A stretch of DNA of 64,000 bases, taken from positions 248,001-312,000 of the forward strand of contig NZ_FCOE02000003.1 in assembly GCF_001544915.2 (NCBI RefSeq). The letters are read 5' to 3'. The notes below the pieces were generated by a model. That model was not told where the DNA came from, searched no databases, and saw only the letters and a list, made by a program, of their open reading frames with translations. Made by a program: the position numbers and the translations under genes. Shown here in pieces: positions 41,362 through 61,661 of this stretch. Source of the DNA: Caballeronia pedi. GTDB taxonomy: Bacteria; Pseudomonadota; Gammaproteobacteria; Burkholderiales; Burkholderiaceae. Position 1 is the stretch's first letter; every line of letters starts with the position of its first letter.

Positions 41362-41838
41362 ATGGCAACAAAGAAAGCTGCTGCTACGAAAACTGCTGTA
41401 CCGGCGAAGAAGGCGGTGGTCGCAAAGAAGGCTGTGGCTGCAAAGAAAGCCGCCGCACCGAAGAAGGTCGCTGCGACCAAGTCCGCTCCGGCGAAGAAGG
41501 CTGCTTCGAGCGCCACCACGCTCAAGCCGGTGAAGGACGCGTTCACCAAGGCGTCGCTCGTCACTCATGTGGCTGCGCAAGCCGGCGTCGAGCCGAAGCA
41601 AGCGAAGGCTGTGCTGGCAGCGCTCGAGGACACGATTCTCGGCGCTGTGAACAAGAAGGGATTGGGGGAGTTTACGCTGTCCGGGCTGCTCAAAATCAAC
41701 GCGCAGAAAGTGGAAGCAAAGAAGCGTCGCTTCGGCAAGGACCCGTTCACGGGTCAAGAGCGTTGGTTTGATGCCAAACCGGCGACCGTCAAGCTGAAGG
41801 TGCGTGCGCTGAAGAAGTTGAAGGACGCAGCTGCCTAA
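41362..41838 (+). CDS. HU-family nucleoid protein with Lys/Ala-rich tail, copy 1
   Basis: 158 residues. The first ~50 are repeats of KKA(V/A)-type residues, resembling the disordered tail of linker histones. The rest is an HU/IHF-like core: FTKASLVTHVAAQAGVEPKQ, KKGLGEFTLSGLLKINAQKV and a modified arm KKRRFGKDPFTGQERWFDA. It should bind and compact DNA as a dimer. The tail is ~19 residues longer than in copy 2 at 61121, while the cores are identical. Monocistronic, with its own leader and terminator. Confidence 0.9.
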   Translation: MATKKAAATKTAVPAKKAVVAKKAVAAKKAAAPKKVAATKSAPAKKAASSATTLKPVKDAFTKASLVTHVAAQAGVEPKQAKAVLAALEDTILGAVNKKGLGEFTLSGLLKINAQKVEAKKRRFGKDPFTGQERWFDAKPATVKLKVRALKKLKDAAA

Positions 41839-41859
41839 CGCCCACTCTTCGTGTTGACC

Positions 41860-41884
41860 AGAAGCCCGCTTCGTGCGGGCTTCT
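41860..41884 (+). terminator. Terminator of HU-like copy 1
   Basis: AGAAGCCCGC and GCGGGCTTCT form a ten-base stem with a five-base loop 21 nt after the stop codon; the same hairpin follows copy 2. Confidence 0.8.
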
Positions 41885-42327
41885 TCGCATCTGTCTCTCG
41901 GACCAGCCGCTGGAAACATGACGGAAGTCTCTCCGTTTCCGTGGTGAGGGGTCCGATGACTTAGCAGTCAACGTCGTGCACAACATCATCCTCGCGGACT
42001 CGCGCCCGGCCGAGCGGCGATTGCAATGCCGTCCTGCTTAGCTTGCTCCTTGACGACGCAACGCTTTTTTTTGTCAACGAGGCCGATGAACGGGAGCGCA
42101 TCCCCTACTTTGGACAATGGCCGCCGTCCGGCTCCTGAGCGCTTACCAGCTCGATGCGTTGTCAAGGGTTCCATTGAAGGCAAGTATCGTAGAGAACTTC
42201 TTTGACCCATGGCGCAAAACTTCGGCTTACGAAGCGTGGTTGGATGACACACAACATGAGCCTTTTTCTATTCGGACGACAAAGGTCTAGCTTGTTGACC
42301 TTTTCAACCCGAATCGAGCCGATGCCG
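41885..42327. other. Boundary stretch without a clear gene
   Basis: A minus-strand frame ending at 41986 contains ALPFIGLVDKKKRCVVKEQA and might be the tail of a lost gene, but no start or family is evident. This gap separates the HU-like gene from the minus-strand island. Confidence 0.4.
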
Positions 42328-43023
42328 TTACGTCAGCGACCGCTCGAATGCGTGCCGCACACAACTCGCGATGAAGTCGGTGTCAGCTGCTCGAATTTTC
42401 GCCGTCCCACCTTTTGTAAAGTCCACGCTGCATTTCGCACCTTGGAGTGTGAAGTCGATGCGGAGCGAATCGATTGAGGATTTCGGGCTTGAGAACGGCA
42501 AGTCGTCGAAGGCCTGCAAGACATCCTTGTCACCGTTCAGTTTCAACGCGGCAGAAACGTTCCCATCGAGCGGAATACCGGAGCACTCCAAAGCGGACAC
42601 AGTCAGCGGGATTTTAATCTGGCGAGAAAACTCACGAGCAGCCTCGCGCAAATCGACGGTTACCTTGGATTGCACCGTCACCATGAATCCAGAGCTCGCT
42701 CCTAACGCACCTATAAATGGCAAAAGCGTTCGCGGACCATTTCTCACCTCAAGTGCCAACTCGCGCTCCGGCTCGATTCGAAATTCGGTGACCGTAACTT
42801 CCACCAGTTCTTGTTGAATCTCGGAACCGTCGGGGAGGCGAATCATACGGTCTACCACCTCTTGTTCAATATATTGACCGGTGATAGTCCCTCTTGTCAC
42901 TTTCTCCACTCTAAACCCTTTGCTCAGCGGCCCATCACTAGGTGCGAATGGCATCTCGCGCAAGCGCCGCGCAAGCAACGCCTCGCTTATTATAAGTTTG
43001 AGTGGCAGCCATTTAACTCTCAT
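42328..43023 (-). CDS. Unknown protein C of the three-gene overlapping cassette
   Basis: 231 residues from ATG 43023, which overlaps the end of protein B by 11 bases, so translation is coupled. It appears mostly beta-stranded, with FRIEPERELALEVRNGPR and FMVTVQSKVTVDLREAAREF. LPFIGALGASSGF is the only mildly hydrophobic stretch, too short to call a membrane segment. No domain was recognised. It may be an accessory or effector partner of the PD-(D/E)xK-like protein A. The coupling in a fixed order A-B-C is the best evidence that it belongs to a functional unit. Confidence 0.7.
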   Translation of the reverse strand: MRVKWLPLKLIISEALLARRLREMPFAPSDGPLSKGFRVEKVTRGTITGQYIEQEVVDRMIRLPDGSEIQQELVEVTVTEFRIEPERELALEVRNGPRTLLPFIGALGASSGFMVTVQSKVTVDLREAAREFSRQIKIPLTVSALECSGIPLDGNVSAALKLNGDKDVLQAFDDLPFSSPKSSIDSLRIDFTLQGAKCSVDFTKGGTAKIRAADTDFIASCVRHAFERSLT

Positions 43024-44161
43024 CGTCGCCTCCACCTTGAGCCTTGGCGATGGCTTGACGAGTACGGTCAAGCGCAGCCCGAGATGCCGCTTCGAGGTCT
43101 GCGAGATGTTCCGCCTCCTCCGCAGCTGTCGGACGCACAGAACCTTTACAATGTACCGGTTTCTTTGTGCCTTTCTTTAGTCGATAGACGCTCTTCACGC
43201 CATACGTGAAGCCCGTCCCCTTAGCCGGGTTATCGAACAGGGCTTCAAACTCAACGCGATTACCGCCCTGCTTTTCCGATAACCAGACAACTCGGTAAAA
43301 GAAAAAGTCCGAGCCAACAAAGTTTTCAAGGCTATCGTCAACGAGAAGCTGCTGCCCCTCAAAAGCAGCTCGCTTCAGTAAACTCCTTAGTTCTGTTTCA
43401 ATCGCTTTTCTCTCTTGAGCGGCCTCGACGCGGGCGTCAAGGTCGTCTTCATCGTCCCCGTCTGCATCACTCAGGTCCAACTCAGCGCTGACCGATACCT
43501 TCATGACGTCCATGAACTGATAGCCCTTGACCGCATTGATGAGCGTCTTGAAGAAAAGGGTCCGACTGGCCTTATCAAGACCCTTCAGTTCAATCTGGTC
43601 GCGGTTTGGCTGTGTCTTTGTGAGCACTCGAAGCTTTTCCATCAGGTCTGTCGTCACCGCTTCCAAGCGCGTCGATGCGCTATAACGTACACGGAGACTC
43701 CCCTTCTCGGTGAAGAACTCGATTTTTCCGTCCTTAAACTTCTTCTGACGCATTGACGTCTTCGAATAGTCTAGGTCAAGGTAATCAACAGTTACGTACG
43801 GAGCGGCCCCTTTCTTGGCTACCAGCGTCAACTGTTCGTTGTAGCCGGAGCGCGTCTTTCTCACTTCATCAAGCGCCAATTTTAATTGTCCAACATCGAC
43901 TTGCGTGTCCAGAGTGAAGGAGCGGGTCTTGTCTTTACGACTCGTCGTGTCAATTTGAAGCATGAGGACATCAAGGTCTTGATGGCTAAGTGTCAGCGAT
44001 GATACCCGGTCCACCAGTTCAGCTCTGCTGGACAGACCACTGACAACATATCCTCGTTCACGCAAAAACTTACTCAAGAACTCTCGCGTTGCACGTAATG
44101 GCGCTGAATTCAAGGCGTCGTAAACGTCGCGATACGAGGCAAAGAAGAGAGAGTCAATCAT
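43013..44161 (-). CDS. Unknown protein B of the three-gene overlapping cassette
   Basis: 382 residues from ATG 44161, eight bases inside the end of gene A. The N-terminal region (FLRERGYVVSGLSSRAELVD) resembles a SAP-like or helix-extended-loop-helix segment, which is a guess. A beta-rich middle follows, then a very acidic linker (LSDADGDDEDDLDARVEAAQ) and a C-terminal half with FYRVVWLSEKQGGNRVEFEA. It ends in an Ala/Arg helix. No known family recognised. It is long enough to be the targeting or structural subunit of the cassette. Confidence 0.7.
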   Translation of the reverse strand: MIDSLFFASYRDVYDALNSAPLRATREFLSKFLRERGYVVSGLSSRAELVDRVSSLTLSHQDLDVLMLQIDTTSRKDKTRSFTLDTQVDVGQLKLALDEVRKTRSGYNEQLTLVAKKGAAPYVTVDYLDLDYSKTSMRQKKFKDGKIEFFTEKGSLRVRYSASTRLEAVTTDLMEKLRVLTKTQPNRDQIELKGLDKASRTLFFKTLINAVKGYQFMDVMKVSVSAELDLSDADGDDEDDLDARVEAAQERKAIETELRSLLKRAAFEGQQLLVDDSLENFVGSDFFFYRVVWLSEKQGGNRVEFEALFDNPAKGTGFTYGVKSVYRLKKGTKKPVHCKGSVRPTAAEEAEHLADLEAASRAALDRTRQAIAKAQGGGDDES

Positions 44162-45143
44162 AGGACCGTTCTCCCATCCCCAACTGCGTGGTGAAGTACT
44201 TGGGCGTCGTGCGGTCCATGACACTCAGACTTATCTTTGCTTTCTTTTCGCCAAGCGAATGCAAGGTGTACTTTTCGTATGATTGAATAGCCTGCTCAAA
44301 ATGCGCCGTAAAATTCTCGTTTGCCTCGCTCGTCATCAGAATTTCAATTTGCCGGAACCGGCTGAGAATCTGATAGAGCACCATGTAATCGAGCAAATAT
44401 AGAAACTCTTGAAAGCTAGCACCTTCACCGCGATAAAAAATCTTCAATCCTTCGCCCTCGCCCGTTCGGTACTTCAACATCTGCCAAGGCGCCAAAATCA
44501 TTTCGATTGTGATGGGAAGCTGCCATTCCTTTCGGGCAATGCGTGCACGGTCACGCACCGGATGCGAGACGTCCGGATGAAAATAGCTGCAGTCGGCCAA
44601 AACGGGCAAGATGCCGTCACCGCGGTGTCGTGAAATCTGGGCGGCCACATCATAAAGATACTGCACGTCCTTTGGGCCAATGACGTGAACGTCAACGCCT
44701 GTCGGAATTTTAACTGGCTCGTCAAAGACGTGCTCAAGCAAATCCTTCGTGCTTCTCTGATAGTCACCGTCGTGGTTGTACACGAACAGGACGCCTTTGA
44801 TATCGGCGCCTTCGCCCGGACGGCAATACTTTCTGGTCCACTCTTCGCTAATCGGAGCGCAGTCGACAGCCATTCCAAGCGATACCAAAGCATCTCGCAG
44901 AGCGCCCGGGGTAATGGACGATTTCGAATAACTCTTTAAATCGAAATTTAGGTAAACAACCGTTTCACGATAGGGGTCATCGTAGGCGAACACTACGTCG
45001 GTCGGATGAACCGTCTTATCATGCTCAGTCTTGACGCATTCCCATGGAACATTTTCGGGACCAACCTTCGACCAATAAAAGTGCTTGAATACTTTGTCGC
45101 TCAGCTCGGTCGCCATCCGAGCGATTTGTTCACGCTCACTCAC
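44154..45143 (-). CDS. PD-(D/E)xK nuclease-like protein A of the three-gene cassette
   Basis: 329 residues. A restriction-endonuclease-like core is suggested by Glu37/Glu40 in VKTEHDK, Asp49 in HPTDVVFAYDDP, then a strand ending Asp68-Leu-Lys70 in VYLNFDLKSYS, the D-(x)n-D/E-x-K pattern on two adjacent strands. The rest is helical, with SEEWTRKYCRPGEGADIKGV and a C-terminal ILMTSEANENF. It is first in an overlapping three-gene operon on the minus strand inside an apparent defence island. DNA cleavage is inferred from the motif only; no named system was recognised. Confidence 0.65.
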   Translation of the reverse strand: MSEREQIARMATELSDKVFKHFYWSKVGPENVPWECVKTEHDKTVHPTDVVFAYDDPYRETVVYLNFDLKSYSKSSITPGALRDALVSLGMAVDCAPISEEWTRKYCRPGEGADIKGVLFVYNHDGDYQRSTKDLLEHVFDEPVKIPTGVDVHVIGPKDVQYLYDVAAQISRHRGDGILPVLADCSYFHPDVSHPVRDRARIARKEWQLPITIEMILAPWQMLKYRTGEGEGLKIFYRGEGASFQEFLYLLDYMVLYQILSRFRQIEILMTSEANENFTAHFEQAIQSYEKYTLHSLGEKKAKISLSVMDRTTPKYFTTQLGMGERSYD

Positions 45144-45367: not shown

Positions 45368-47092
45368 TCACTGGTCATCGACGCGTCCAGTCTGAGCAAT
45401 CTGCGCCAACGCGACCTTCTGGTCAACATACCATCTTTGTAGGCAAACACGGTCGTGGCAGTTCTGCTCTCGATAGTTCCATTGGGCGCGCGTGCGCTCC
45501 CGAAAAGTAGTTTGGTCTGTCACGGCCGCCTTCGCCCGTGCGTAGACCTCGGCCAATTGCACATCTTCAGCCGCCAGCTCAGCGTCCCCGCATACGAGGC
45601 GCTCGGCATCGGACCGGGCTTTCGTGCAGTCGAAGCTCGGTCTATATACGCTTAAAGGAGCTGCGGTACCGACAGAAGCGGTCGCGGAAGAACGCGACTG
45701 GCCGCTCATGCGTGTCCATTCGGCGAGTGGAGTTTCAGGAAGAGGCATTTCGCGCCAGACGAATTTCCTAGTCGTACCGACCTCTTCGTCGCCGGTGCCG
45801 CTATCGTGGTAGACGATGTCGCCCTTGCCCGTCGTTTCGCTGATGACAAATGCCGCGCGGTCAGACGCACACAGATGAGACATGCATCCTTCCGCGAACA
45901 GGAAACCATCCTTCGACTGAATATCGCCATTGGTCACGGCAAAGCGTTCCGAAATCTTTCTCCAATCAGACGGCGTAACGTGATTGAACGCGGCACGGAA
46001 TCGCTTGTCGTTTACAACATCCGACGGATACTTACCGACTAACCAAGCAAAGCGGCCTTGCAGCGGCTCAGATTTCTGTTCAGGTGCCGAAGCTTCTGCA
46101 ACCTTGGAAACCATAGGAGGCGTACTGGAAGATGCTTGCACCAACTCAGGCTGGCTTTGTGAGCTTCTAGGGTGCAGCGCCAAACTTGCAATCGCTGCCA
46201 GAAACAAAATTCCGGAGTAGGCATACGCCTTCAGTCGGGTACGGTCCTTTCCATCGGGAATCTCTGGCCGTGGCGTTACTTCGAGCAGGACCAATGCTTC
46301 AAACTCCGCATTTGCGTTCGCCGCCTGCACGGCCAGAGTCTTCTTCAGGCGTTCGAACGACATGACCTTGAACAGACCGTAACCTGCCGCGAACAGAACC
46401 GCTAGCCCGCCGGCGGCGAATAGATTCACGAAAATAAGAAAACAGCCCAAAATCCCAAGAGCAAACGCGACACCAAGAGCGGGCATTGCTGGCCATGCGT
46501 TGACCAAACGATGAAGATATGCGGCTTGCGTAGACAATGCCCCCCGGTCTGCCGCCGCTTCCTTGCATCTCTCCTCCACCTCGTACACTGACTTCATTGC
46601 CTTCTCTTTCTCAGCGAGCGAGATTGACCCGATATCTGAGGCCAGCCTTGTAGCCTTGGCGGTAATTTCGAGGTCTTTCGAAAGCGTATTGAGAAACGAA
46701 CGGTGAGCGTCTAGTTTGAAGGCAGTCTCGAGGTCATCATCCTCGACCCAGACACCGTGGGAGACAAAGTAGTCCACAAGGGCGGCTCGCGTGCGCGAAT
46801 TGACTTGCCACACAAACTCTTGCGCTGCTTGTTCTCGCTTCGACATAGGTACTCCGGTTTGGTCCGTTACGCCTTGCGCGGCCGCGTAAGCAGACTGGCG
46901 CGAACCTGCTTTCCTTCTTGAGTTGAGGTTGTGAGTGATTCGAAGCCCCGTTCCCGGAATGCTGGCGGTCACCCTACCCCGCGTGTTGTAGGTGAAGCCC
47001 TTTCCGCCAATGGACGTGCTCACCCCGCTTTTACTGAGGTTGATGCGGATTCCTGGCGCGATTCTTATGGTTTTTCTAAATCCCCAGCCCAT
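45368..47092 (-). CDS. DUF4236-membrane-LprI-like fusion protein
   Basis: 574 residues. The N-terminus is a DUF4236 domain (GFRKTIRIAPGIRINLSKSG, VTASIPGTGLRITHN). A helical region follows, then a hydrophobic hairpin at about 215-250 (ALGVAFALGILGCFLIFVNL) and another membrane segment near 290-310. The C-terminal ~80 residues are a lysozyme-inhibitor LprI-like domain with cysteines: SFDCTKARSDAERLVCGDAE and YREQNCHDRVCLQRWYV. Topology would place the LprI part outside the cytoplasm. It lies between the helicase and the three-gene cassette on the same strand. It may be a membrane-linked component, but function is unknown. Confidence 0.75.
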   Translation of the reverse strand: MGWGFRKTIRIAPGIRINLSKSGVSTSIGGKGFTYNTRGRVTASIPGTGLRITHNLNSRRKAGSRQSAYAAAQGVTDQTGVPMSKREQAAQEFVWQVNSRTRAALVDYFVSHGVWVEDDDLETAFKLDAHRSFLNTLSKDLEITAKATRLASDIGSISLAEKEKAMKSVYEVEERCKEAAADRGALSTQAAYLHRLVNAWPAMPALGVAFALGILGCFLIFVNLFAAGGLAVLFAAGYGLFKVMSFERLKKTLAVQAANANAEFEALVLLEVTPRPEIPDGKDRTRLKAYAYSGILFLAAIASLALHPRSSQSQPELVQASSSTPPMVSKVAEASAPEQKSEPLQGRFAWLVGKYPSDVVNDKRFRAAFNHVTPSDWRKISERFAVTNGDIQSKDGFLFAEGCMSHLCASDRAAFVISETTGKGDIVYHDSGTGDEEVGTTRKFVWREMPLPETPLAEWTRMSGQSRSSATASVGTAAPLSVYRPSFDCTKARSDAERLVCGDAELAAEDVQLAEVYARAKAAVTDQTTFRERTRAQWNYREQNCHDRVCLQRWYVDQKVALAQIAQTGRVDDQ

Positions 47093-47176: not shown

Positions 47177-50100
47177 TTACGCTTCGGCGGCTACCCAAGC
47201 TTGCTCCAGTCGTTCGCGGCTTGCAGCGCGAACGCGTTGCAATCCGATTTCACGACTCATGGCACTCACGCCAGCCTCCATGTCGTAACCGAGGCGCTTC
47301 CACTTGGTCGCAAGCGCTGTCAACTCGACAAGAGAGATTTCATCCACTGAACGGGCCAAACCCTCGGTGGGACGTCGGAACTGCATGAGTCGGGCGCCTT
47401 CCTTTTTTGGCCACACGAACAATCCAACCGCTTCATGTTCGGTCTCGAAATGAACCTTCGCGAGGTCTATGACTCGGTCGACAATGCGGGCACCCGTACG
47501 AACCCAGCCATGCGCTCGAGCGATACGACGAGCAAGCACCTCGTCACGGACGGGCCCCTCAGTCTCCACGACGGTCACAATCATTTCGAGCAAACGCGCG
47601 TCATAGCTGCGATTGAAGAACAGTTCCGGCTCTGCCACGTGGGCTGTCAATGAGAGGTCAACCTCGACGAAAACTTCGTGCGGCTCCTCGCGTTGAGGCG
47701 CCATGGAAATGCCTCTCCCGTAAAGCGTCGCCGTCGGCGCTTTCACAACAGCTTCCGTCGTGAATACAGTATCGTCTCCGAGCTTCTCAGGGTCTTCGCG
47801 GCCGCTTGCATCGTCCTCTGCGCCGGACTTTGCCGCAGCTATCACTTCCTCGGCAAGCGCAGCCGCGTCCGACTCATCCATCGCGCGCTCTTCACGCTGC
47901 AATGCAAGAAAGCCTCGCAATTGTGCATCGACCTTCTCGAGCGTGCCCGGCATATCAATCCACCAATCGGTCGACCAGATGCGCACGATTTCCCAACCTA
48001 GCCCTCGCAAGACTTGCTCGCGCAATTTATCGCGGTCACGCGCCGTCGCGGACCGGTGATAGGTTGCTCCGTCGCACTCGACCCCGGCGAGATAGCGCCC
48101 TGGCGCATCCGGGTCAACCACGCCCAAGTCAATGCGGAAAGCTGAAACGCCGACCTGCGGGTGGACCGTCCATCCACGTTCCGCAAGTGCCACACAGACG
48201 GCTTTCTCAAAAGGACTGTCGAAGTCGCCAATGCTTCCAGCGACCGCCTCTCCCAGAGCTCTCGCCCCACGCTCGGCGAACTCAAGGAAGTGCTTGAGGT
48301 CTCGAACACCAAGCGCCTGCGTTCGCGACAAGTCCATTTTCTCCGGCCTGAAGCTACCAAAGACCCGCAACTCTTGACGGGCGCGAGTGATGGCGACGTT
48401 CAGACGCCGCTCACCACCCTGCTGGTTCATTGGGCCGAAGTTCATCGGCATCGTGCCATCTAGGCCCGGACCGTAGGTAATGGAGAAGTACATGATGTCG
48501 CGCTCATCACCCTGCACGCTCTCGAGGTTCTTCACAAATACAGGCTCGAAGGCCGTATCGGCAAAGTGCTGCTCGATGGACGGGTCCTTGCGACGCTCCG
48601 CGTCCAACAGGTCCTCAATGAGTCGCTGCTGCTCGGCGTTGAAGGTCACGACCCCGACGGTTTGTCCGCTTTCCGCGAATCCTGGCGACTTGAGACGACT
48701 GACAAGGTCTGCAACGAGCGCCTTGGCCTCAGGCTTGTTCGTACGCGAGGCCCCACGCTCGTACTGGCCACCCGAGGCCAGATGGAAGCTTACCGCTCGG
48801 TCATCCGTGACGGGACTCGGGAACGTCACCAGGTCCCCGCCGTAATAACGGTAGTTAGAAAACGCGATGAGGCTTTCATGACGGCTGCGATAGTGCCACG
48901 ACAATTTCATCGTCGGCAGGTTCGCACCGATACACTCTTCCAGGATGCTCTCTAGTTCGGTTTCGACGTCCGTGTCGTCAACATCAGATTCCGCGCGGTC
49001 GAAGAAGCTTGTCGGCGGAAGCTGCTTCGGGTCGCCGACCATGATGACTTGGCGGCCGCGCGCCATGGCACCAATAGCGTCCCATACGGGAATCTGCGAC
49101 GCCTCGTCGAAGACCACCACATCGAAATCGGACGTTTCTGCGGGCAGATACTGTGCAATCGACAACGGGCTCATCAGCAAGCAGGGCGTGAGGCGCAGGA
49201 TGGCGCTCGAGGCCTTCGTCATCAATTCACGAAGTGGCAGGTGGCGAGTTTTCTTCTGCATCTCATAGCGCAGAAGCCCCCACTCCGACCCGTGCGACAC
49301 CTTGGCCGGCGAAGGCAGTCCCGCCGAAAGCTGTGCCCTAACCCAGGCTTGCGTCAGCGCGATGAACTGCTCGTCCAGTTCGCGGAAATCGTGAATGCGC
49401 TTTTCATGCTCCGCGGAGACGAAAGTACGCAGGACGTCGTCGGCATCAACGACGGCATTCAGCCACCAGCGACAGAAGTCCGTCTCGAAGACTTCCTTGA
49501 CACGGCCTCGCGCGATGACGCCCTGCTCCACGCCCGCAACCACCGGCGCCAATCCAAGCGAAAGTGCCTGCTGACGTACCTTACGCCAAGCACACCAAGC
49601 GTTCAGACGGTTCGAGTTTTTCGATACGTTTCGGGCGCGTTCAGCCATTTCTGCAGGCAGGAGCGCCGCGAGGCTCGTATGCTCCGATACAGCAAGACCG
49701 CTCGCCGATGCGAACTTCGTGACTGCCTCGTCGAGGGACCTAAGTCCTTCGGCATAGACTCGACCACTTCCAGCAATGATGCCGGACGGGGCAAGCAGCT
49801 CATTGCTGTCACCCAGCAACAGACCGACCGGTCCCTTTACGGCCGACAGGACCTCAGGCGTTCCGGCGAGATTCGCGAGAGCTACGGCCAACGACTCGAA
49901 GAATTTCAGCGCTGGCTCGACGCCTTCGGTTTTTGTTTGCAGACCGTTCCACAGACCTGACGTCTTGGTCGACAGGTCGGAATACTCTTGAAGGCGTGCA
50001 TGAAGTGTCACCAACTCGCGCATCTTCTTGATGTCAGCGGCGGCAATAGCTCCGGCACGTCCGGATTCAATTGCCGAGAAGCCGTCGTCAAGCCAATGGC

Positions 50101-53100
50101 TTTCAGCGCGCGCGGCCGCCAACGCACCCTGGAAGGTTGTGTAGGCCTTCGCTACGCCGACGTCGGTCTGAAACCCGCTCCAAATTCCGTCTGTCTCTGT
50201 TTCGAGCGGCGCGAGGCGGTTGACGACCTGCTCAACTTGGCGCAGTTCACGCAGGCGATGAAGGTCATCACGAGCCGCATCACCGCACTGGCCCCGGCTG
50301 ACCGGGTCTAGACCGACATCCTCCCACGCGTTGCGGGCGTGAACCTGAACCATTGCTGCCTGGAAAGCGAGGAGTGCTCGAACGACATCGAGGTCCGTCT
50401 TCGGTCCCGCCCACGCATTAGACGTCGGCAACGACAGGTCATCGAGCGCCTTGATTTGCTCGTTGAGTGTTTCGATTTTGGCCAAGCGCTCGATATCGCC
50501 GTCGATGTCGGGCTCGCTACCGCCTGTTGCAAGTTCCTTAAGTTTTTTGACGAGCGAGCGCTTGCGCATCATGCTCATCGGCCAACCCGAATCCTTCAGC
50601 TCGCGAAGGTCCGACTGCAACTCAGCGACGGTTTTCGTCGGAATGCTTTCGTTATACTGCAGAGAGAGTTGACCCACGGTGTCGAGGCGATTGCGCAGCA
50701 GCTCGATACCATTAGTCAAACGGTTTCGCAGCGTCTCATTCCACGGCTGGGACAACTCAGCCCGTAGTTCCGCGTCGCGCTTCACCTGAGTGATGCCAAG
50801 TCGCAGGTCTTCGAGCGTCTGGTTCCCTTTCGGCGTCGACAGGCCTACGAGCAGCTCGCGATAACGCTCGAGCATCGGTACTGCCTGCCGGAGCGCGTCA
50901 GCGATGGATTTAGCGTCGGGACGCAGTGCGAAGCGCCAGTCGTAACCAGAAGCCAACGGGAGCGTGGCCGCGAGCATGCGAAGGCCTTCACGCACTCGCG
51001 CGTCAAGCGGAAGCGACGGAAGTCCGATGGCGGCTCGCAGGTCATCCGCGGCTTTCTCAAACCTGGCAACAACCTCGGGTACGGCCTGAGCTGCATCCAG
51101 CAATGCGGATTGCCACAGCGGGGACCATTCCGTCTGAGCGACGTGTGCGAGCGGAGTCAAATTGAGCTGCCCCTCGCCAAATGCCTTCGCGTTGACATCG
51201 AGCAATTCTGCCGTCTCTCGAAGCGTGCGCATGCCCTCGAGGTCATGTGCCTTCGAGGATGGCCACGACAGGCGCAGCGCAGGCAGGTCATGGCCGCCGA
51301 CCACTCGTCCAATCGCCTCATACACGCTCAGGCCGTTTTCATGACGATAGTGAAGGCGTTCCACATAGCCGTTCAGTTGCGAACGAATGGCTTCCAGTCG
51401 CTCCGCCTCCGCATGCCACCGTTCGGGAGCGAGCGCGGAAGTCGCGTCCCAGGACGTACGGAGTTGCTCGAGCACCTCGGTCTTACGCGCCTTGCTTGAA
51501 TGGAGTTCGAGACAGAAGTTTCCAAGCCCGACATCGGCGAGCCGTCGATAGACGACGTCGAGCGCAGCCATCTTCTCGGAAACGAACAGCACTCGCTTCT
51601 TCTCGGCGAGGAACTGCGCGATAAGGTTGGAGATGGTCTGGCTCTTGCCTGTTCCCGGCGGTCCAATTAGAACAAAGTCCTTGCCCTTGCTGCCCGCAAC
51701 GACGGCAGATAACTGAGATGAGTCTGCGGGAAGCGGACAGAAGGTTTCCTTGACAGGAAGCTCCCTATCCAACCGCCGCAGGTCCGGAAATTCGACACTC
51801 GTGTGGTATGAATCCCGCGGCGTATCGATGAGATGTCGAACGACCGCATTCTGCTTGAGCTGCTCGGTTCGCTCAGTAAGGTCCCGCCACATCAGGTATT
51901 TCGCGAACGAGAATGACGCGAGAACGACGTCCTCTACGACCTCCCAACCCTTGATGTCTTTGATGGCATTCGAGACTGTCTTCCAGATGCCGGCCACGTC
52001 GAGCCCAGAATCATCTTTCGGCAACTCGGTGTCACGGATGCCGAGTTCCAACTCGAAATCCTGGCGCAACATCTCGATGAGGGTCGGATTGAACCGTGGC
52101 TCATCGTCGTGCAGCTTGAGACTGAAGCCGGAACGGGCGCTGCGTCGCTCAAGGCTGACAGGCACCAAGATGAGAGGCGCGCGATACTTTTTGTCGTCTT
52201 TGTCGTCCCGCGTCCACGAGAGAAAACCCAAGGCGAGATAGAGCGTATTCGAGCCGCCCTCTTGGAGCGTCGTCCGAGAACTGCGGAATAGCTCAAGTAA
52301 GCGGTCGTCCATCTCCTCCTGCGCGAGACCGATGAAGACTTCCTTTCGCTTGAGCGCATCTAGCGCATGCCGACGACGAATGTGCTCGCGCTCGCGAGCT
52401 TCATGAATCGCTTGGCTTCGGGGGTCAGCACCGTCCATCAAGTCCGGACGAGTCAGAAGCTTGAGCGCTTGACCCTCCGCGAGAATGTCCTCTAGGAGGC
52501 CCGGTTCCGGAGCATCGAGCTTTACCGACTTCTTGCCAGCCTTGAAACTGAGCAGGTTGTTCCGCAGGGACAAGTCAAGCAGCTTGCGCTGCCAGCGGGT
52601 CAGTCTGTCTTCCGGGCGCTCGAGGTCGCCGTCAACGTCGGTGCCTCCGAAAGTCGTAGGAAGGTCGGGAGCGTCCTCCCAGATGGGCGCGCGATTATCG
52701 CTGGAGCCTTCATCTGAGCTGCCGCGCACGACTGCGTGTTCGCTCGCCAGCGGCTTGATGCGCTGAAGTCGCGCGCGATGGATGTCCACCGCCAGTTCGA
52801 ATTTAACTTCCGACTCTTCCGAGATGTGTTCCTCGCCCTTCTCTGCAGCGAAACTGAACTTCGGAAGAGGTCGCTGCGTCAACATCGTTGACTCAAACAG
52901 GACCATCTCCTTCAGCTTCACGCGCTTTCTGAGCGCGGTGATGTCGTCGACGACTGTTGTGGAGAATTCCTCGGGTTTCAGCCAGACGCCAGGGAATGCG
53001 TGTCCTTCCTGGAACACGACGAGCGGATTGAGGCCAGCTTGCTCAAGCGCAGCACAAGCGAAAAGCGCCAGGTCGAGACAGGTGCCAAGCTTCGATTCAG

Positions 53101-53779
53101 CAATATGACCAGGACCGCGCACCTTCTGGCCGTTGTGCTCAAAGCTCGCAGGCGGAACCGCGTAGTCGATGCCCATGGCACCAATGGCGTTCCAGATGGC
53201 CGACGCTAATTCCCACGCGCGTTTTGGTCCGTCCTGATAGCCATTGATGGCGCCGGACTTCCCTGCGCTTCGCAGGACTTCCGCCGCTTGCTTGAGAACT
53301 CGCTCGATGGCAGGCTCGTTCGGTTGAACGAACGCGGCCACCATATCGGGCAGCGACGACAGACCGCTCCATTGGTTTCGAGGAAGTAAGTCAACAATCG
53401 CCTCGGCCAAGGCCAAATCTGCCGGCTCGTCGTTGCCGTGGACGAGGCGAAACGTGACGACAGCTTTCTCGGACTCCGTCAGTCGTCCAAGTAACGCCCC
53501 GTCGAGCCCAAGGTCGATGTCCGAGAGCCGAACCGTCTGGCTAGACGCCAGTTGGTCGATATGCCACGTCTTCGGCTTCAAAAACGGGGGCTCAGAGCCG
53601 ACCGTCAGTCGCAGCGACTTGTAGTCGCTCCTCGTGTCGTTGACAAGCGACAGCTCACGAATAACCGGAACGGCATTCTGGAAGTCGGCGAGGTTGACCT
53701 TGGTGGCAAGCGTCGTCTTGATTTCGACGCAGCACGGCTCATCCGGCTGAACAGCCGGCTCAATTGTTACTGTATCCAT
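47177..53779 (-). CDS. Giant DUF4011/SF1 helicase/Vsr-nuclease/DUF3320 protein (Hhe-like)
   Basis: 2,200 residues. In order: a beta-rich N-terminal domain; a transglutaminase-like domain at ~180-290 with the Cys in KLGTCLDLALFACAALEQAG and His in FQEGHAFPGVW; a DUF4011-type segment at ~395-480 (LTRWQRKLLDLSLRNNLLSF); Walker A GPPGTGKS at ~702-709; a long helical insert; the SF1 motifs FDEASQIP and GDPKQLPPTSFF near 1555, LSWHYRSRHESLI and ITRARQELRV; a Vsr/DUF559-like nuclease from ~1850 (FEKAVCVALAERGWTVHPQ, ... RIDLGVVD, ... VECDGATYHRS); and a C-terminal DUF3320-like region. From memory this layout matches the anti-phage protein called Hhe. All key helicase and nuclease residues look intact, so it should be active. 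Confidence 0.85.
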   Translation of the reverse strand: MDTVTIEPAVQPDEPCCVEIKTTLATKVNLADFQNAVPVIRELSLVNDTRSDYKSLRLTVGSEPPFLKPKTWHIDQLASSQTVRLSDIDLGLDGALLGRLTESEKAVVTFRLVHGNDEPADLALAEAIVDLLPRNQWSGLSSLPDMVAAFVQPNEPAIERVLKQAAEVLRSAGKSGAINGYQDGPKRAWELASAIWNAIGAMGIDYAVPPASFEHNGQKVRGPGHIAESKLGTCLDLALFACAALEQAGLNPLVVFQEGHAFPGVWLKPEEFSTTVVDDITALRKRVKLKEMVLFESTMLTQRPLPKFSFAAEKGEEHISEESEVKFELAVDIHRARLQRIKPLASEHAVVRGSSDEGSSDNRAPIWEDAPDLPTTFGGTDVDGDLERPEDRLTRWQRKLLDLSLRNNLLSFKAGKKSVKLDAPEPGLLEDILAEGQALKLLTRPDLMDGADPRSQAIHEAREREHIRRRHALDALKRKEVFIGLAQEEMDDRLLELFRSSRTTLQEGGSNTLYLALGFLSWTRDDKDDKKYRAPLILVPVSLERRSARSGFSLKLHDDEPRFNPTLIEMLRQDFELELGIRDTELPKDDSGLDVAGIWKTVSNAIKDIKGWEVVEDVVLASFSFAKYLMWRDLTERTEQLKQNAVVRHLIDTPRDSYHTSVEFPDLRRLDRELPVKETFCPLPADSSQLSAVVAGSKGKDFVLIGPPGTGKSQTISNLIAQFLAEKKRVLFVSEKMAALDVVYRRLADVGLGNFCLELHSSKARKTEVLEQLRTSWDATSALAPERWHAEAERLEAIRSQLNGYVERLHYRHENGLSVYEAIGRVVGGHDLPALRLSWPSSKAHDLEGMRTLRETAELLDVNAKAFGEGQLNLTPLAHVAQTEWSPLWQSALLDAAQAVPEVVARFEKAADDLRAAIGLPSLPLDARVREGLRMLAATLPLASGYDWRFALRPDAKSIADALRQAVPMLERYRELLVGLSTPKGNQTLEDLRLGITQVKRDAELRAELSQPWNETLRNRLTNGIELLRNRLDTVGQLSLQYNESIPTKTVAELQSDLRELKDSGWPMSMMRKRSLVKKLKELATGGSEPDIDGDIERLAKIETLNEQIKALDDLSLPTSNAWAGPKTDLDVVRALLAFQAAMVQVHARNAWEDVGLDPVSRGQCGDAARDDLHRLRELRQVEQVVNRLAPLETETDGIWSGFQTDVGVAKAYTTFQGALAAARAESHWLDDGFSAIESGRAGAIAAADIKKMRELVTLHARLQEYSDLSTKTSGLWNGLQTKTEGVEPALKFFESLAVALANLAGTPEVLSAVKGPVGLLLGDSNELLAPSGIIAGSGRVYAEGLRSLDEAVTKFASASGLAVSEHTSLAALLPAEMAERARNVSKNSNRLNAWCAWRKVRQQALSLGLAPVVAGVEQGVIARGRVKEVFETDFCRWWLNAVVDADDVLRTFVSAEHEKRIHDFRELDEQFIALTQAWVRAQLSAGLPSPAKVSHGSEWGLLRYEMQKKTRHLPLRELMTKASSAILRLTPCLLMSPLSIAQYLPAETSDFDVVVFDEASQIPVWDAIGAMARGRQVIMVGDPKQLPPTSFFDRAESDVDDTDVETELESILEECIGANLPTMKLSWHYRSRHESLIAFSNYRYYGGDLVTFPSPVTDDRAVSFHLASGGQYERGASRTNKPEAKALVADLVSRLKSPGFAESGQTVGVVTFNAEQQRLIEDLLDAERRKDPSIEQHFADTAFEPVFVKNLESVQGDERDIMYFSITYGPGLDGTMPMNFGPMNQQGGERRLNVAITRARQELRVFGSFRPEKMDLSRTQALGVRDLKHFLEFAERGARALGEAVAGSIGDFDSPFEKAVCVALAERGWTVHPQVGVSAFRIDLGVVDPDAPGRYLAGVECDGATYHRSATARDRDKLREQVLRGLGWEIVRIWSTDWWIDMPGTLEKVDAQLRGFLALQREERAMDESDAAALAEEVIAAAKSGAEDDASGREDPEKLGDDTVFTTEAVVKAPTATLYGRGISMAPQREEPHEVFVEVDLSLTAHVAEPELFFNRSYDARLLEMIVTVVETEGPVRDEVLARRIARAHGWVRTGARIVDRVIDLAKVHFETEHEAVGLFVWPKKEGARLMQFRRPTEGLARSVDEISLVELTALATKWKRLGYDMEAGVSAMSREIGLQRVRAASRERLEQAWVAAEA

Positions 53780-55142: not shown

Positions 55143-55874
55143 CTACGCGGCCGCCGTCAGCGTAAAAGTCATCGGCGGTGCCTCTGGGAGCGGCTGAGTC
55201 TCGGCGAAATCCCAATGTAGTCCTTCTCGAACTACGGGCGCCCACTTCCGCCATGCGAAGAAACTGCTCGGATGGCGAACAAACAAGAGTTTTATCGGCT
55301 TTCCGCCCTTCGTATCGACAAAGGCGGAGCGCGCACAGAATCGGCCGACCTTGGTCGGATGTCGTTCGACACTGTAGCGCAGTTTCTCCGCACTGGCGGC
55401 CGCTCGAAGGGAGTTGATTGACTCCACTCCAAAGACCAAGCATTGCTCCACGCCCATCACGTCAAACAAGTCCAACGCCGCGGTCCATCCAGCTTGATAC
55501 TGCTTCTCCGTCGGTCGACGCTTTACCGTCTCCATTACATCAAGCACGAGATTGTGGTACATCACGGATGACCAGAGCGCTTGCTTCTGAGCATCGCTCG
55601 GGTTGCGCCGTTGGAATATTGCACGCTCGATGTTCCGGACGTAGCGTGAGTCCCTGTCGAATTTTAGTGCATGGTTCTTATGGGTCACACGGAGACCGGA
55701 CGTTAGCCCATAACGCTTGTCGAAGGCTTCCCCCTCGGCCCATCGGTATACGCTTTCACCGAGAATCATCGTCTTGGTGGCGGACCGTGAGAAGTCTCTG
55801 CCGACCCAAGGCCACCACTTGAGTGGCTCACGGGCTTCGAACAGGTGGTCGAACGATAAATCAAGGTGGTCCAT
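55143..55874 (-). CDS. Uracil-DNA-glycosylase-like protein, second member
   Basis: 243 residues from ATG 55874 (MDHLDLSFDHLF); a longer extension in frame overlaps the upstream gene. TMILGESVYRWAEG near residue 36 and LLFVRHPSSFFAWRKW near the C-terminus match the two active-site loops also seen in the 10883 protein. VEQCLVFGVESINSLR lies between them. The fold assignment rests on these loops and their spacing. It starts ten bases after the receiver-domain gene, so the two are almost certainly co-expressed and may act together on nucleic acid ends. Confidence 0.55.
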   Translation of the reverse strand: MDHLDLSFDHLFEAREPLKWWPWVGRDFSRSATKTMILGESVYRWAEGEAFDKRYGLTSGLRVTHKNHALKFDRDSRYVRNIERAIFQRRNPSDAQKQALWSSVMYHNLVLDVMETVKRRPTEKQYQAGWTAALDLFDVMGVEQCLVFGVESINSLRAAASAEKLRYSVERHPTKVGRFCARSAFVDTKGGKPIKLLFVRHPSSFFAWRKWAPVVREGLHWDFAETQPLPEAPPMTFTLTAAA

Positions 55875-55884
55875 ACAGATTTGA

Positions 55885-56187
55885 TTATTTGTTTTGTTTG
55901 AGTACAAGGCGTTCGATGGCGAGTATGCCGGATTCCATTTTCGCGCGCGCCGAACTGTTCGCAGAGTGTACGTATATTTTGGGCGGCCGGAAGCCCCGAA
56001 GCGCGACGGCCTCTTCAATCCACAAAACGACGTCGTAGCCGGTGCCGCGCTCGTCATCGCCCAAGTCGTGGTCAAGGCTCAGTTCTTCGACATTCCCAGT
56101 CTCGAGCAGCCTGATTGCCTCTTGCGGCCAATACACGCGCGTCCAACCCTCCGGCGTGACGCGCTCGTCGTCCAGGAAGACCTTCAC
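55885..56187 (-). CDS. Cyclic-phosphate-processing receiver (cREC)-like domain protein
   Basis: 100 residues, a single compact domain. MKVFLDDERVTPEGW at the N-terminus carries the acidic cluster, LSLDHDLGDDERGTGYDVVL holds the conserved Asp/His/Asp set, and IYVHSANSSARAKMESGI provides the following strand and Ser loop. This is the pattern of the receiver-derived domain proposed to process cyclic phosphates on RNA or nucleotides; it is not a typical two-component receiver. Paired with a glycosylase-like protein directly downstream. Confidence 0.75.
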   Translation of the reverse strand: MKVFLDDERVTPEGWTRVYWPQEAIRLLETGNVEELSLDHDLGDDERGTGYDVVLWIEEAVALRGFRPPKIYVHSANSSARAKMESGILAIERLVLKQNK

Positions 56188-58392: not shown

Positions 58393-58644
58393 CTATGATT
58401 CAATTAGGGATTCTGGCATCACTACCTGCTTGTCCTCTGCGCGGCGAAATGAGCCTTCGACTGATGGCGGCACGTTGTAGACTTCGACGACGCGTCTTAT
58501 CTCTTCAAGTGCAAACGGAATGTTAATCAAAATGAACGCGCCGTGACTATCAATGATGGAGTACCGTGGCGACCGTCGCAGGCATCCGCGCCAGACCTTT
58601 GGCTGGTCAGCCTGACTTCGCGCGTAAGCACAACACGCATTCAT
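58393..58644 (-). CDS. Small protein overlapping the end of the HTH protein gene
   Basis: 83 residues: a Cys-containing N-terminus (MNACCAYARSQADQPKVW), then SIIDSHGAFILINIPFALEE and an Arg/Val helix. ATG 58644 has GGAAGG at proper spacing and lies 38 bases inside the upstream gene's 3' end in another frame, so translation is probably coupled. It might be a small partner or antidote. Function unknown; a frameshifted continuation of the larger gene is an alternative. Confidence 0.5.
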   Translation of the reverse strand: MNACCAYARSQADQPKVWRGCLRRSPRYSIIDSHGAFILINIPFALEEIRRVVEVYNVPPSVEGSFRRAEDKQVVMPESLIES

Positions 58645-60184
58645 AGCGGCGGCCTTCCGGCGACCGGTCTTCGCTCGAGCGACGAAAAGATATCCTTCGA
58701 GACAGCAACAGCAAGAGACCGGCTTCCCCTGCCTCTGCGATGAGGTCAAAAACTGCGTCCCTAATTGTCTCGGAAGGTGAGTCATTCAATCCAAGCTTCG
58801 ATTCAAATATGAGTCTTCGGGCAAGGTCCCTCGCTCTTGTCAGAAGCGCTGCTGCCAGCGGATGGACACCAAAGCTGGAAGCGATTTCGAAGGACGTTGC
58901 CTCCGTTGCAACCCTTTCAAATGCTTCTAGCGTCGTTGCCAACACCCATTGCTGTCGATTCTCGACATCATCAAGAATCTGAACAGGCTCCACATTGAGT
59001 ACGTCGGCAAGTTTCAAGACCGTGTCAGGCGATACTCGAAGTAGACTTCCGGTTTCAGAAATTAAATCCTCAGAAATGTCTGCCGCACGGACCAGCTGCA
59101 GGCCATTAAGATTCTGCTCTTTCATCGCTTGGTAAACTGCTCTTTTATCAATAACTGCGCACCACCTGTCGTCAAACTCGAAATTAGTTCTGTCTGCGAC
59201 CTCTAGAGCACGCCGAATCCAATCAATCGGCCTGTCAATCGACTCGGCAAAGTCACAGTATCGTTCCCAGATATCCTCGCCAATCTGGTCAGGTGATTCC
59301 TCCTCGACCTCGCGCGGTTCGGCCCGTGTCGACCGACCATCAATCCAGCAAATATCGATGCGGAACGCTTCAGCTTTCGACCGGACAATCCAGCGTCCTT
59401 TTGTCCGTTCTGAACATTCGCACCTAAACCACACAAATATCTGAAATAGAGTCGCCTCTTGAATCCGAGCGAACGCGAATCCTGTTTCGAGCTCCGTTAT
59501 ATAGAACCTCGCTACGTAGGACGGTTTGAGACATGGGGGCACCGCCGCATCGTTGAAAATCAACGTTGGTCGCGCGTAGCTCAGCTTCTGCAGGAGTTGC
59601 TGTGAAGCGAAGCGAAGGTCCTCCTGGTCCATTTCGCATGGAACCGGGTCGCCATTCTCACCTTTCAGAAAGCGCCGAAGTACGAACTCCACGTTGTCTG
59701 AGCGGTAGGGAGAGATATCGATATTCAGCCCGGACGGGTATCTAGTTACTTGACACAGCGCGGTTTCCGATGTACTTGGCATCGAATGGATTACTTCGTC
59801 GACGAGGACTGTTATGGCCTCGGAAAACGTTGTGAACGTCTGTCTTTCAACCTCCGCTTCCCACACGGACATAACCAACATGTAACGCGGCTCTGCCTTG
59901 GTTTCGTTCACGCTGAGGTGAGCAAGCGATGCTAGGTTGTCGCCGAAGACTCGCTCTACGACTCGCAGCGCACCGTCAGCCGTCAACTGAACGCCCAGCT
60001 TTCGTAACTCGCTATTAAGTCGACTTGCTATCGCCACGGCGTGGTTATCATGCTCAACGATAGTCGCCGCCCAGACCCGCGCTGCCTGCGTCAGAGAAAT
60101 TTGTCTCCCTTCAGCAATAAGATATGCGCGAAGAGTTTCACCAGGGGAAGGCATAGGACCACGTGGGCTATCCGAAGCACTCAT
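58607..60184 (-). CDS. Large HTH-domain protein of unknown function
   Basis: 525 residues from ATG 60184 with GGAG ribosome site. The N-terminal half has no recognised domain (FGDNLASLAHLSVNETKAEP; a predicted mixed alpha/beta region). Around residues 345-405 a Cro/C1-type helix-turn-helix is seen: YQAMKEQNLNGLQLVRAADI followed by ISETGSLLRVSPDTVLKLAD and VLNVEPVQILDD. The C-terminal ~120 residues are helical (LTRARDLARRLIFESKLGLN). It sits at the right side of the conflict-gene island with an overlapping small gene. It may be a regulator-like toxin component, by context only. Confidence 0.65.
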   Translation of the reverse strand: MSASDSPRGPMPSPGETLRAYLIAEGRQISLTQAARVWAATIVEHDNHAVAIASRLNSELRKLGVQLTADGALRVVERVFGDNLASLAHLSVNETKAEPRYMLVMSVWEAEVERQTFTTFSEAITVLVDEVIHSMPSTSETALCQVTRYPSGLNIDISPYRSDNVEFVLRRFLKGENGDPVPCEMDQEDLRFASQQLLQKLSYARPTLIFNDAAVPPCLKPSYVARFYITELETGFAFARIQEATLFQIFVWFRCECSERTKGRWIVRSKAEAFRIDICWIDGRSTRAEPREVEEESPDQIGEDIWERYCDFAESIDRPIDWIRRALEVADRTNFEFDDRWCAVIDKRAVYQAMKEQNLNGLQLVRAADISEDLISETGSLLRVSPDTVLKLADVLNVEPVQILDDVENRQQWVLATTLEAFERVATEATSFEIASSFGVHPLAAALLTRARDLARRLIFESKLGLNDSPSETIRDAVFDLIAEAGEAGLLLLLSRRISFRRSSEDRSPEGRRYECVLCLRAKSG

Positions 60185-61120
60185 GGCATGACTCCGAAAA
60201 TTATGTACAAGTCCGGAAGGACGGCGCACTTCCGCTCGGCTGGCTTCTGAACTGTCGACCTAGCAGTTCCAAGATGCCTGACGATACCCAATCTACCACC
60301 ATGTCGAATGGACGCGGGAACGAGTTAGGACGGGGGGCCCGAAGGCTGCCCACCTATATCGGACCACGCAAGCGCGTTGCTGACAAGCGCCCTGTACACA
60401 AGGACGCTGGAAGTCTCGCTTGTTCCCGAAACCGGATGATGTGCAATGCAATCTCGGTTGACGTGTGCATCCGCATTGACCTTTTAACAGGCTGTTGAAA
60501 TGCCGTTGATGTAGCGCAGGTGTCCGAGCGCGTCGTCATATTTTCTCGTGACACCAGTCGTCGGCCGGCGGCTAGATTTATTCTCGTTGACGCAAGCACC
60601 GACGTCTAAGTTGTCTCATGTAAGCTGTCTTTGGCGCCAGCTACGCCTGACCGCACGCAGTACTCGTGGAAATTGTCGAGCTACATTCGAAGCGTCTTCG
60701 AATTTCGTCATGTTGAATCATGACGCAGTACGCTCAGTCGACGTTTCGCAGGCAAAGTGGGCAAAGCACAGTGTTCGCAATGTAGCTTCGTCCCCAACGA
60801 GCGCATCATGATGCAGCTCGATGCGCGCTCGAAATGCTCGAAACGAATTGGCCAGAAGACTACCCTGACGACGCCGTCGAGTGGCTTGACTTCGAAGGAC
60901 AAAGTCCGTCAAGCGTTTGAGCCGGCATCTGAGCGACTTTGCGTCGTAAATTCAACGAAATCCCACAAAAGACCCTTGTTTCAGGGGGCATTCTTGTTGC
61001 TAATCGCACGAGCCGTTGCTACGCTAGCCGACAGCTTACGACGACGCATGTACCGGGCGCGCGACGCCGCGGGGTGCTTCGTCTTAAGCGTCTTTAAAAC
61101 TTACGACGAAGAGGACTCGC
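60185..61120. promoter_or_regulatory. Long gap ending in the HU-like leader
   Basis: No gene recognised in the first ~800 bp. Short frames such as one ending near 60920 with ETNWPEDYPDDAVEWLDFEG read like protein but lack a start. From 61012 the conserved leader of the HU-like gene begins. Confidence 0.45.
61012..61089 (+). repeat. Leader repeat, copy 2 (shared with 41259-41336)
   Basis: Same ordered blocks (ACGCTAGCC, AGCTTACGACGACGCATGT, GGGGTGCTTCGTCTTAAGC) as in front of HU-like copy 1. The region is conserved although the bases between the blocks have drifted. Confidence 0.65.
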
Positions 61121-61540
61121 ATGGCAACGAAGACCGCAAAACCTGCAGCCAAGCCGACTGCCAACAAGACTGCAGCAAAAAAGGCAGCAGCCCCGGCGAA
61201 GAAGGCTGCGGCGGGCGCTACGCTCAAGCCGGTGAAAGACACGTTCACAAAAGCGTCGCTCGTCACTCATGTGGCTGCGCAAGCCGGTGTCGAGCCAAAG
61301 CAAGCGAAGGCTGTGCTCGCAGCGCTTGAGGACACGATTCTGGGTGCCGTGAACAAAAAGGGTTTGGGCGAGTTTACGCTGTCCGGCCTGCTCAAAATCA
61401 ACGCTCAGAAAGTGGAAGCCAAGAAGCGTCGCTTCGGCAAGGACCCGTTCACAGGTCAGGAGCGCTGGTTTGATGCCAAGCCGGCCACGGTAAAGTTGAA
61501 GGTTCGTGCGCTGAAGAAGTTGAAAGACGCCGCTGCCTAA
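61121..61540 (+). CDS. HU-family nucleoid protein with Lys/Ala-rich tail, copy 2
   Basis: 139 residues. The tail is ~30 residues (TAKPAAKPTANKTAAKKAAA) and the HU/IHF-like core is essentially identical to that of copy 1, including KKGLGEFTLSGLLKINAQKV. Only the tail length differs, so the two may compact DNA with different linker or phase behaviour. It has its own leader and a matching terminator; an unknown-family gene follows. Confidence 0.9.
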   Translation: MATKTAKPAAKPTANKTAAKKAAAPAKKAAAGATLKPVKDTFTKASLVTHVAAQAGVEPKQAKAVLAALEDTILGAVNKKGLGEFTLSGLLKINAQKVEAKKRRFGKDPFTGQERWFDAKPATVKLKVRALKKLKDAAA

Positions 61541-61561
61541 CGCTCATTCGTCTTGTTGACT

Positions 61562-61586
61562 AGAAGCCCGCTCCGTGCGGGCTTCT
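61562..61586 (+). terminator. Terminator of HU-like copy 2
   Basis: AGAAGCCCGC, loop TCCGT, GCGGGCTTCT: ten-base stem, 21 nt after the stop codon, like copy 1. Confidence 0.8.
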
Positions 61587-61661
61587 TCGCATTGGCTTGG
61601 TTACATTATGTCGGCACGCGACGAGCGACGCAGACAGTGAGGCATGTACAGGCGGAATCGA

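Follow-up and report, generated by a model that had tools for sequence, protein, structure and literature searches.

Rst_3HP, a three-gene anti-phage system, in Caballeronia pedi: a chromosomal copy led by a predicted PD-(D/E)xK nuclease

Rst_3HP was reported by Rousset et al. 2022 (PMC9122126) from the P2-phage hotspot, as three genes without clear domains that give protection against phage P1. According to the passage of the DefenseFinder paper that concerns it (PMC9090908), the system is in majority prophage-encoded, and the relevant table of a 2024 paper (PMC10855318) enters 3HP as of unknown mechanism. The further literature found on Rst_3HP consists of lists and passing mentions, with no mechanism. 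Here we analyse a 64,000-nucleotide stretch of Caballeronia pedi (contig NZ_FCOE02000003.1, positions 248,001 to 312,000; hereafter the window), in which three overlapping genes on the reverse strand, A, B, and C, are a chromosomal copy of Rst_3HP, as shown by the matching profiles, the order of the genes, and their inseparability. For the first of the three proteins, a conserved motif and a modelled fold support the prediction of a PD-(D/E)xK nuclease.

The leading gene, A (Hp1; 44154..45143, −), has a GTG start and encodes 329 residues. It is followed by B (Hp2; 43013..44161, −; 382 residues), read from the ATG at 44161, and C (Hp3; 42328..43023, −; 231 residues), read from the ATG at 43023. 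A and B share eight bases (44154-44161), and B and C share 11 (43013-43023). These lengths and overlaps had been given in an earlier note on this DNA, and our coordinates and reading frames agree with them. All three frames are intact, and their lengths lie inside the family range, which over 89 loci is 323-410 residues for A, 350-453 for B, and 211-249 for C. The PADLOC profiles identify A as Hp1 (PDLC03004, 1e-55), B as Hp2 (PDLC03005, 1.2e-28), and C as Hp3 (PDLC03006, 3.1e-12), with matches over most of each length (residues 2-326 of 329, 1-360 of 382, and 2-206 of 231). As in Rst_3HP, the genes adjoin one another, point in the same direction, and follow the order Hp1-Hp2-Hp3. The three proteins also fall into PHROGs families without assigned function (A, phrog_7059, 2.8e-85; B, phrog_6531, 1.4e-51; C, phrog_5850, 1.2e-28).

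No Pfam or NCBIfam model exceeds its cut-off in A, B, or C, the Pfam release scanned being one without PF26115, a family that is carried as precomputed annotation by all 37 of the 37 A matches. This silence is why the trio looks unknown to a reader. The statement in the earlier note that B and C match nothing known holds for Pfam and NCBIfam and fails for PADLOC, where they match Hp2 and Hp3. Its proposal of an undescribed anti-phage system was right as to the anti-phage kind, protection against P1 having been published for another member of the family, and has to be given up as to novelty. The PADLOC profiles and the description from 2022 both speak against it, as do a Vibrio phage record in which the three genes are annotated Rst_3HP__Hp1, Hp2, and Hp3, and a copy at the original hotspot in Escherichia coli strain H3. 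There, the position of the trio is between the portal and replication endonuclease genes of a P2-like prophage, and a Klebsiella Peduoviridae phage has it at the corresponding place; this is the hotspot that Rousset et al. described. Among 5,426 E. coli genomes, 18 contain close relatives of this DNA. A whole 3HP trio is also found at one genome end of the filamentous Pf-type Pseudomonas phage 54-4 (OR621021.1; L178). The window trio resembles the published system in gene order, in the match of each protein to its profile, and in having no clear known domain by sequence. It differs from it in its place, the window showing it beside ProA on a chromosomal contig with no P2-like prophage around it, and in its sequence, A being 33-39% identical to the A of most relatives.

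Loci related to the window trio were searched with two peptide patterns from A, one of them containing DLKSY. The 159 loci analysed, all found with A, comprise the best 80 of 93 from genome contigs and 79 from viral contigs. A, B, and C are consecutive on one strand in 146 of the 159, a count that includes one locus (L140) where B and C are 1,320 bases apart. The remaining 13 lie at record ends, three with A-B and ten with A only, the longest remaining stretch past A in these ten being 327 bases. Gene spacing was measured with every gene beginning at its earliest possible start codon, so that overlaps come out too large; on this measure A and B overlap in 130 of 149 loci and are 0-19 bases apart in the remaining 19, and B and C overlap in 90 of 146. 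In 299 genomes of the family, separate profile searches with A, B, and C led to the same five, with hits at adjacent sites, and in 398 genomes of the phylum those with A and B led to the same three, our own genome being counted in both cases. A-B-C is one operon and an obligate trio. The fixed cassette proposed in the earlier note is borne out by these results, and the survey of co-travel that it suggested found the homologues of A, B, and C together, not apart. The rare, patchy distribution is in keeping with a mobile defence module. One of the five genomes holds a decayed 3HP copy (G296, contig C6, 153426-157327; L164, L165, L170, L173, and L176), in which about 1.5 kb separates the two pieces of A, B is partial, and C contains stops.

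The three proteins have also diverged in step. When the 146 trios and the window were thinned to 89 loci, the between-locus distances of the three proteins correlated with r of 0.94, 0.83, and 0.84, and the maxima of 999 permutations were 0.07-0.09, never above 0.091. Such correlated distances point to common inheritance, not to contact. The median pairwise identity is 34% for A, 25% for B, and 19% for C, which makes C the most divergent of the three. A three-subunit complex of A, B, and C is plausible.

A is composed of two predicted domains. The N-terminal one (residues 1-156; 44676..45143, −) is restriction-endonuclease-like and holds the predicted metal-binding residue Asp49 (44997..44999, −) and the D-x-K half of the motif, Asp68-Leu69-Lys70 (44934..44942, −). 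The second (residues 157-312; 44208..44675, −) is an alpha/beta domain without the D...[DE]xK motif. Asp49 and Asp68-Leu69-Lys70 are invariant in all sequences of two sets. One is an alignment of 33 sequences, the window plus 32 of 37 matches (the window's own, P0001, and P0004, P0005, P0009, and P0016 being omitted); the other holds 135 sequences, the window plus 134 distinct among the 153 complete of 159 A frames. In the larger set the invariance of Asp68-Leu-Lys70 is partly a product of selection, DLKSY being one of the two search patterns. His46, Ser71, Tyr72, and Asn123, which lie near Asp49, Asp68, and Lys70, are likewise invariant in 135 of 135. With a median pairwise identity of 34% over the remainder of A, this invariance is what a functioning active site would be expected to show.

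The AlphaFold2 model of A (predicted local distance difference test 85, predicted template modelling score 0.86) shows a PD-(D/E)xK-like N-terminal domain followed by the motif-less second domain. Compared with solved structures, the model resembles the restriction-endonuclease-like core at moderate Z; a Foldseek search with it gave no match at E ≤ 0.001, and sequence search gave A no solved relative. The two marks of the PD-(D/E)xK superfamily, the conserved D...[DE]xK motif and the core fold, are thus found, the latter in the predicted model, which supports A as a PD-(D/E)xK nuclease by prediction. Both the nuclease core with Asp49 and Asp68-Leu-Lys70 claimed in the earlier note and the structure prediction that it called for come out in its favour, the residues lying where it had placed them and the modelled fold containing the core. 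Overall its claim was partly supported: right on a nuclease-led defence cassette, wrong on calling it undescribed.

Restriction-endonuclease-like domains resembling residues 1-156 of A are present in HamA of Hachiman (PDB 8vxy), McrC, FokI, NucS/EndoMS, Cap4, and Can2, none of which has a detectable sequence relation to A. Several of these are defence nucleases, and those rely on a helicase, a GTPase, or a cyclic-nucleotide sensor. In contrast, 3HP encodes none of the three by the motifs tested. Across 159 A, 149 B, and 146 C frames no strict Walker-A motif occurs, although seven A and one B have a looser P-loop pattern, and the methylase-type motif [DNS]PP[YFW] (DPPY-type) is absent from the same frames. 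From these two absences we infer a nuclease complex that sensing licenses, rather than a restriction-modification set.

B and C offer fewer clues. The acidic central linker that the earlier note had pointed out in B (about residues 225-262; 43376..43489, −) is a family trait, with at least 30% Asp or Glu in 58 of 63 aligned B proteins. The N-terminal stretch of B looks SAP-like by eye; no SAP-type match exceeded the cut-off in ten N-terminal fragments, and a SAP family search of 150 genomes gave two matches. A Pfam scan of 63 B members gave nothing above cut-off, DUF4518 appearing in eight with a best value of 0.0014. By sequence, B and C have no convincing solved relative (best E 1.7 and 0.08), and comparisons found no common ancestry for B with C or for A with B.

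In Pseudomonas phage 54-4, the depositors label Hp3 'RdgC-like exonuclease', a likeness of C to RdgC (PF04381) that our comparisons do not support. Aligned by hhalign, C and RdgC gave a probability of 0.8%, with the N-termini of the two nonetheless paired in the alignment, and the score of 19.0 was reached by two of 19 decoy families. In three trio-bearing phage records, which are related records and not the window C, the RdgC profile found no match at E ≤ 10 and the Hp3 profile was found in three of three. As a control at the same threshold, the RdgC profile matched four of 14 genomes, exceeding its cut-off only in E. coli. RdgC is not among the 25 of 36 families listed, and the window C has no Pfam match.

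The neighbourhood of 3HP, judged without a random-neighbour control, is a mobile and defence context. One neighbour per side was taken from 72 of the 80 genome loci, giving 142 proteins, whose families are considered here as the top 25 of 117 and the top 25 of 263. Phage integrase is the commonest Pfam family (9/142), and the other Pfam families listed include UvrD helicases (3), BsuBI/PstI restriction enzymes (2), and AAA ATPases. Among the PADLOC models listed are GajB (3), type II restriction enzymes (2), AriA (2), dGTPase (2), mad2 (2), and HamB (1).

The explanation that we consider probable is that the locus is a 3HP copy whose proteins form one complex, with Hp1 as the nuclease effector and with Hp2 and Hp3 checking it and licensing it upon infection. 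The three proteins would be made together, their genes overlapping, and would work as a single complex. Hp1 would be a metal-dependent PD-(D/E)xK nuclease with catalytic Asp49, Asp68, and Lys70 in its N-terminal domain, while its second domain, in which the motif was lost or never present, probably has a role in dimerisation or in the binding of partners or DNA. Hp2 and Hp3 would restrain the nuclease and license it once infection is sensed, and the likeliest sensor would be Hp3, the most divergent of the three. Since A, B, and C hold no strict P-loop or DPPY-type motif, phage would be discriminated by a phage-made protein or DNA structure, not by a cassette-encoded methyl mark or a motor driven by nucleoside triphosphate (NTP).

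Three other readings draw on the same features. The overlapping genes, the mobile contexts, and the nuclease core in A would also suit a three-gene toxin-antitoxin system, with A as a nuclease toxin, B or C as its antitoxin, and defence through killing of the host; we regard this as rather unlikely, B and C being larger than usual antitoxins and the passages of literature consulted containing no growth or toxicity data. Lower still in our estimate is a Hp1 that uses its nuclease fold for binding only, leaving the toxic or blocking activity to Hp2 or Hp3. Inactive nuclease-like folds do exist, as the second domain of A itself suggests, and neither B nor C has a convincing match to any solved chain; set against this is the invariance of Asp49, Asp68, Lys70, His46, Ser71, Tyr72, and Asn123 in 135 of 135 proteins that otherwise share a median identity of 34%. 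A modification-sensitive restriction enzyme, with the complex cutting DNA according to the presence, or absence, of a mark that host or phage has written, appears similarly improbable. The likeness of the A fold to McrC and other restriction nucleases speaks for it, as does the fact that P1 and its relatives modify their DNA, whereas the three proteins contain no methylase-type motif and no strict P-loop, and methylases are not regular neighbours (methyltransferase models account for at most two of 142 among the models listed).

Returning to the licensed nuclease, a more specific version can be put forward only tentatively, as one that we hold possible and on balance doubtful. Rst_3HP may be a self-contained nuclease machine that uses neither NTP hydrolysis nor a DNA mark, in which two proteins of as yet unseen fold license an Hp1 built of one active and one motif-less restriction-endonuclease-like domain, and the fast-diverging Hp3 decides which phage is sensed.

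Upstream of the trio lie, on the same strand, a gene for a 574-residue protein with an N-terminal DUF4236 domain (45368-47092, −; 1.1e-15), situated between 3HP and ProA, and the ProA gene itself (47177-53779, −). The latter matches NCBIfam antiphage_ProA with 2306 bits against a cut-off of 1500, which bears out the defence gene noticed earlier on the strand of the trio. At E ≤ 1e-20, the frames of the 159 loci contain no homologue of either ProA or the DUF4236 protein, and ProA as a regular partner of 3HP was rejected, as it does not recur across them. Two HU-like histone genes (41362-41838 and 61121-61540, both +) bracket a stretch of about 19 kb that contains 3HP and ProA; the copies are identical at 364 of 403 aligned bases (41485-41890 versus 61190-61592), and a third lies about 60 kb further along the same contig. 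In a congener (G368, contig C71, L224-L225), cargo lies scattered among several HU-like genes or fragments and includes a ProA 87.5% identical to that of the window, without 3HP or the DUF4236 protein, and with RTasRmuC-type and DnaJ-domain proteins adjoining. In another genome (G292, L226), what lies between two HU copies is metabolic cargo. A possible role of the HU genes is to mark where segments are exchanged. Two island proteins of 310 and 540 residues (55143-56075 and 58607-60229, −) match neither Pfam (E ≤ 1e-4) nor PADLOC (E ≤ 1e-5), the former having a 69%-identical homologue in the HU-flanked region of the congener.

The window adds a chromosomal member to Rst_3HP. As published, the system consists of three proteins without clear domains, and the invariant residues and fold model of Hp1 now offer a direct test by catalytic mutants. 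Because the trio is inseparable, all three parts should be tested together.
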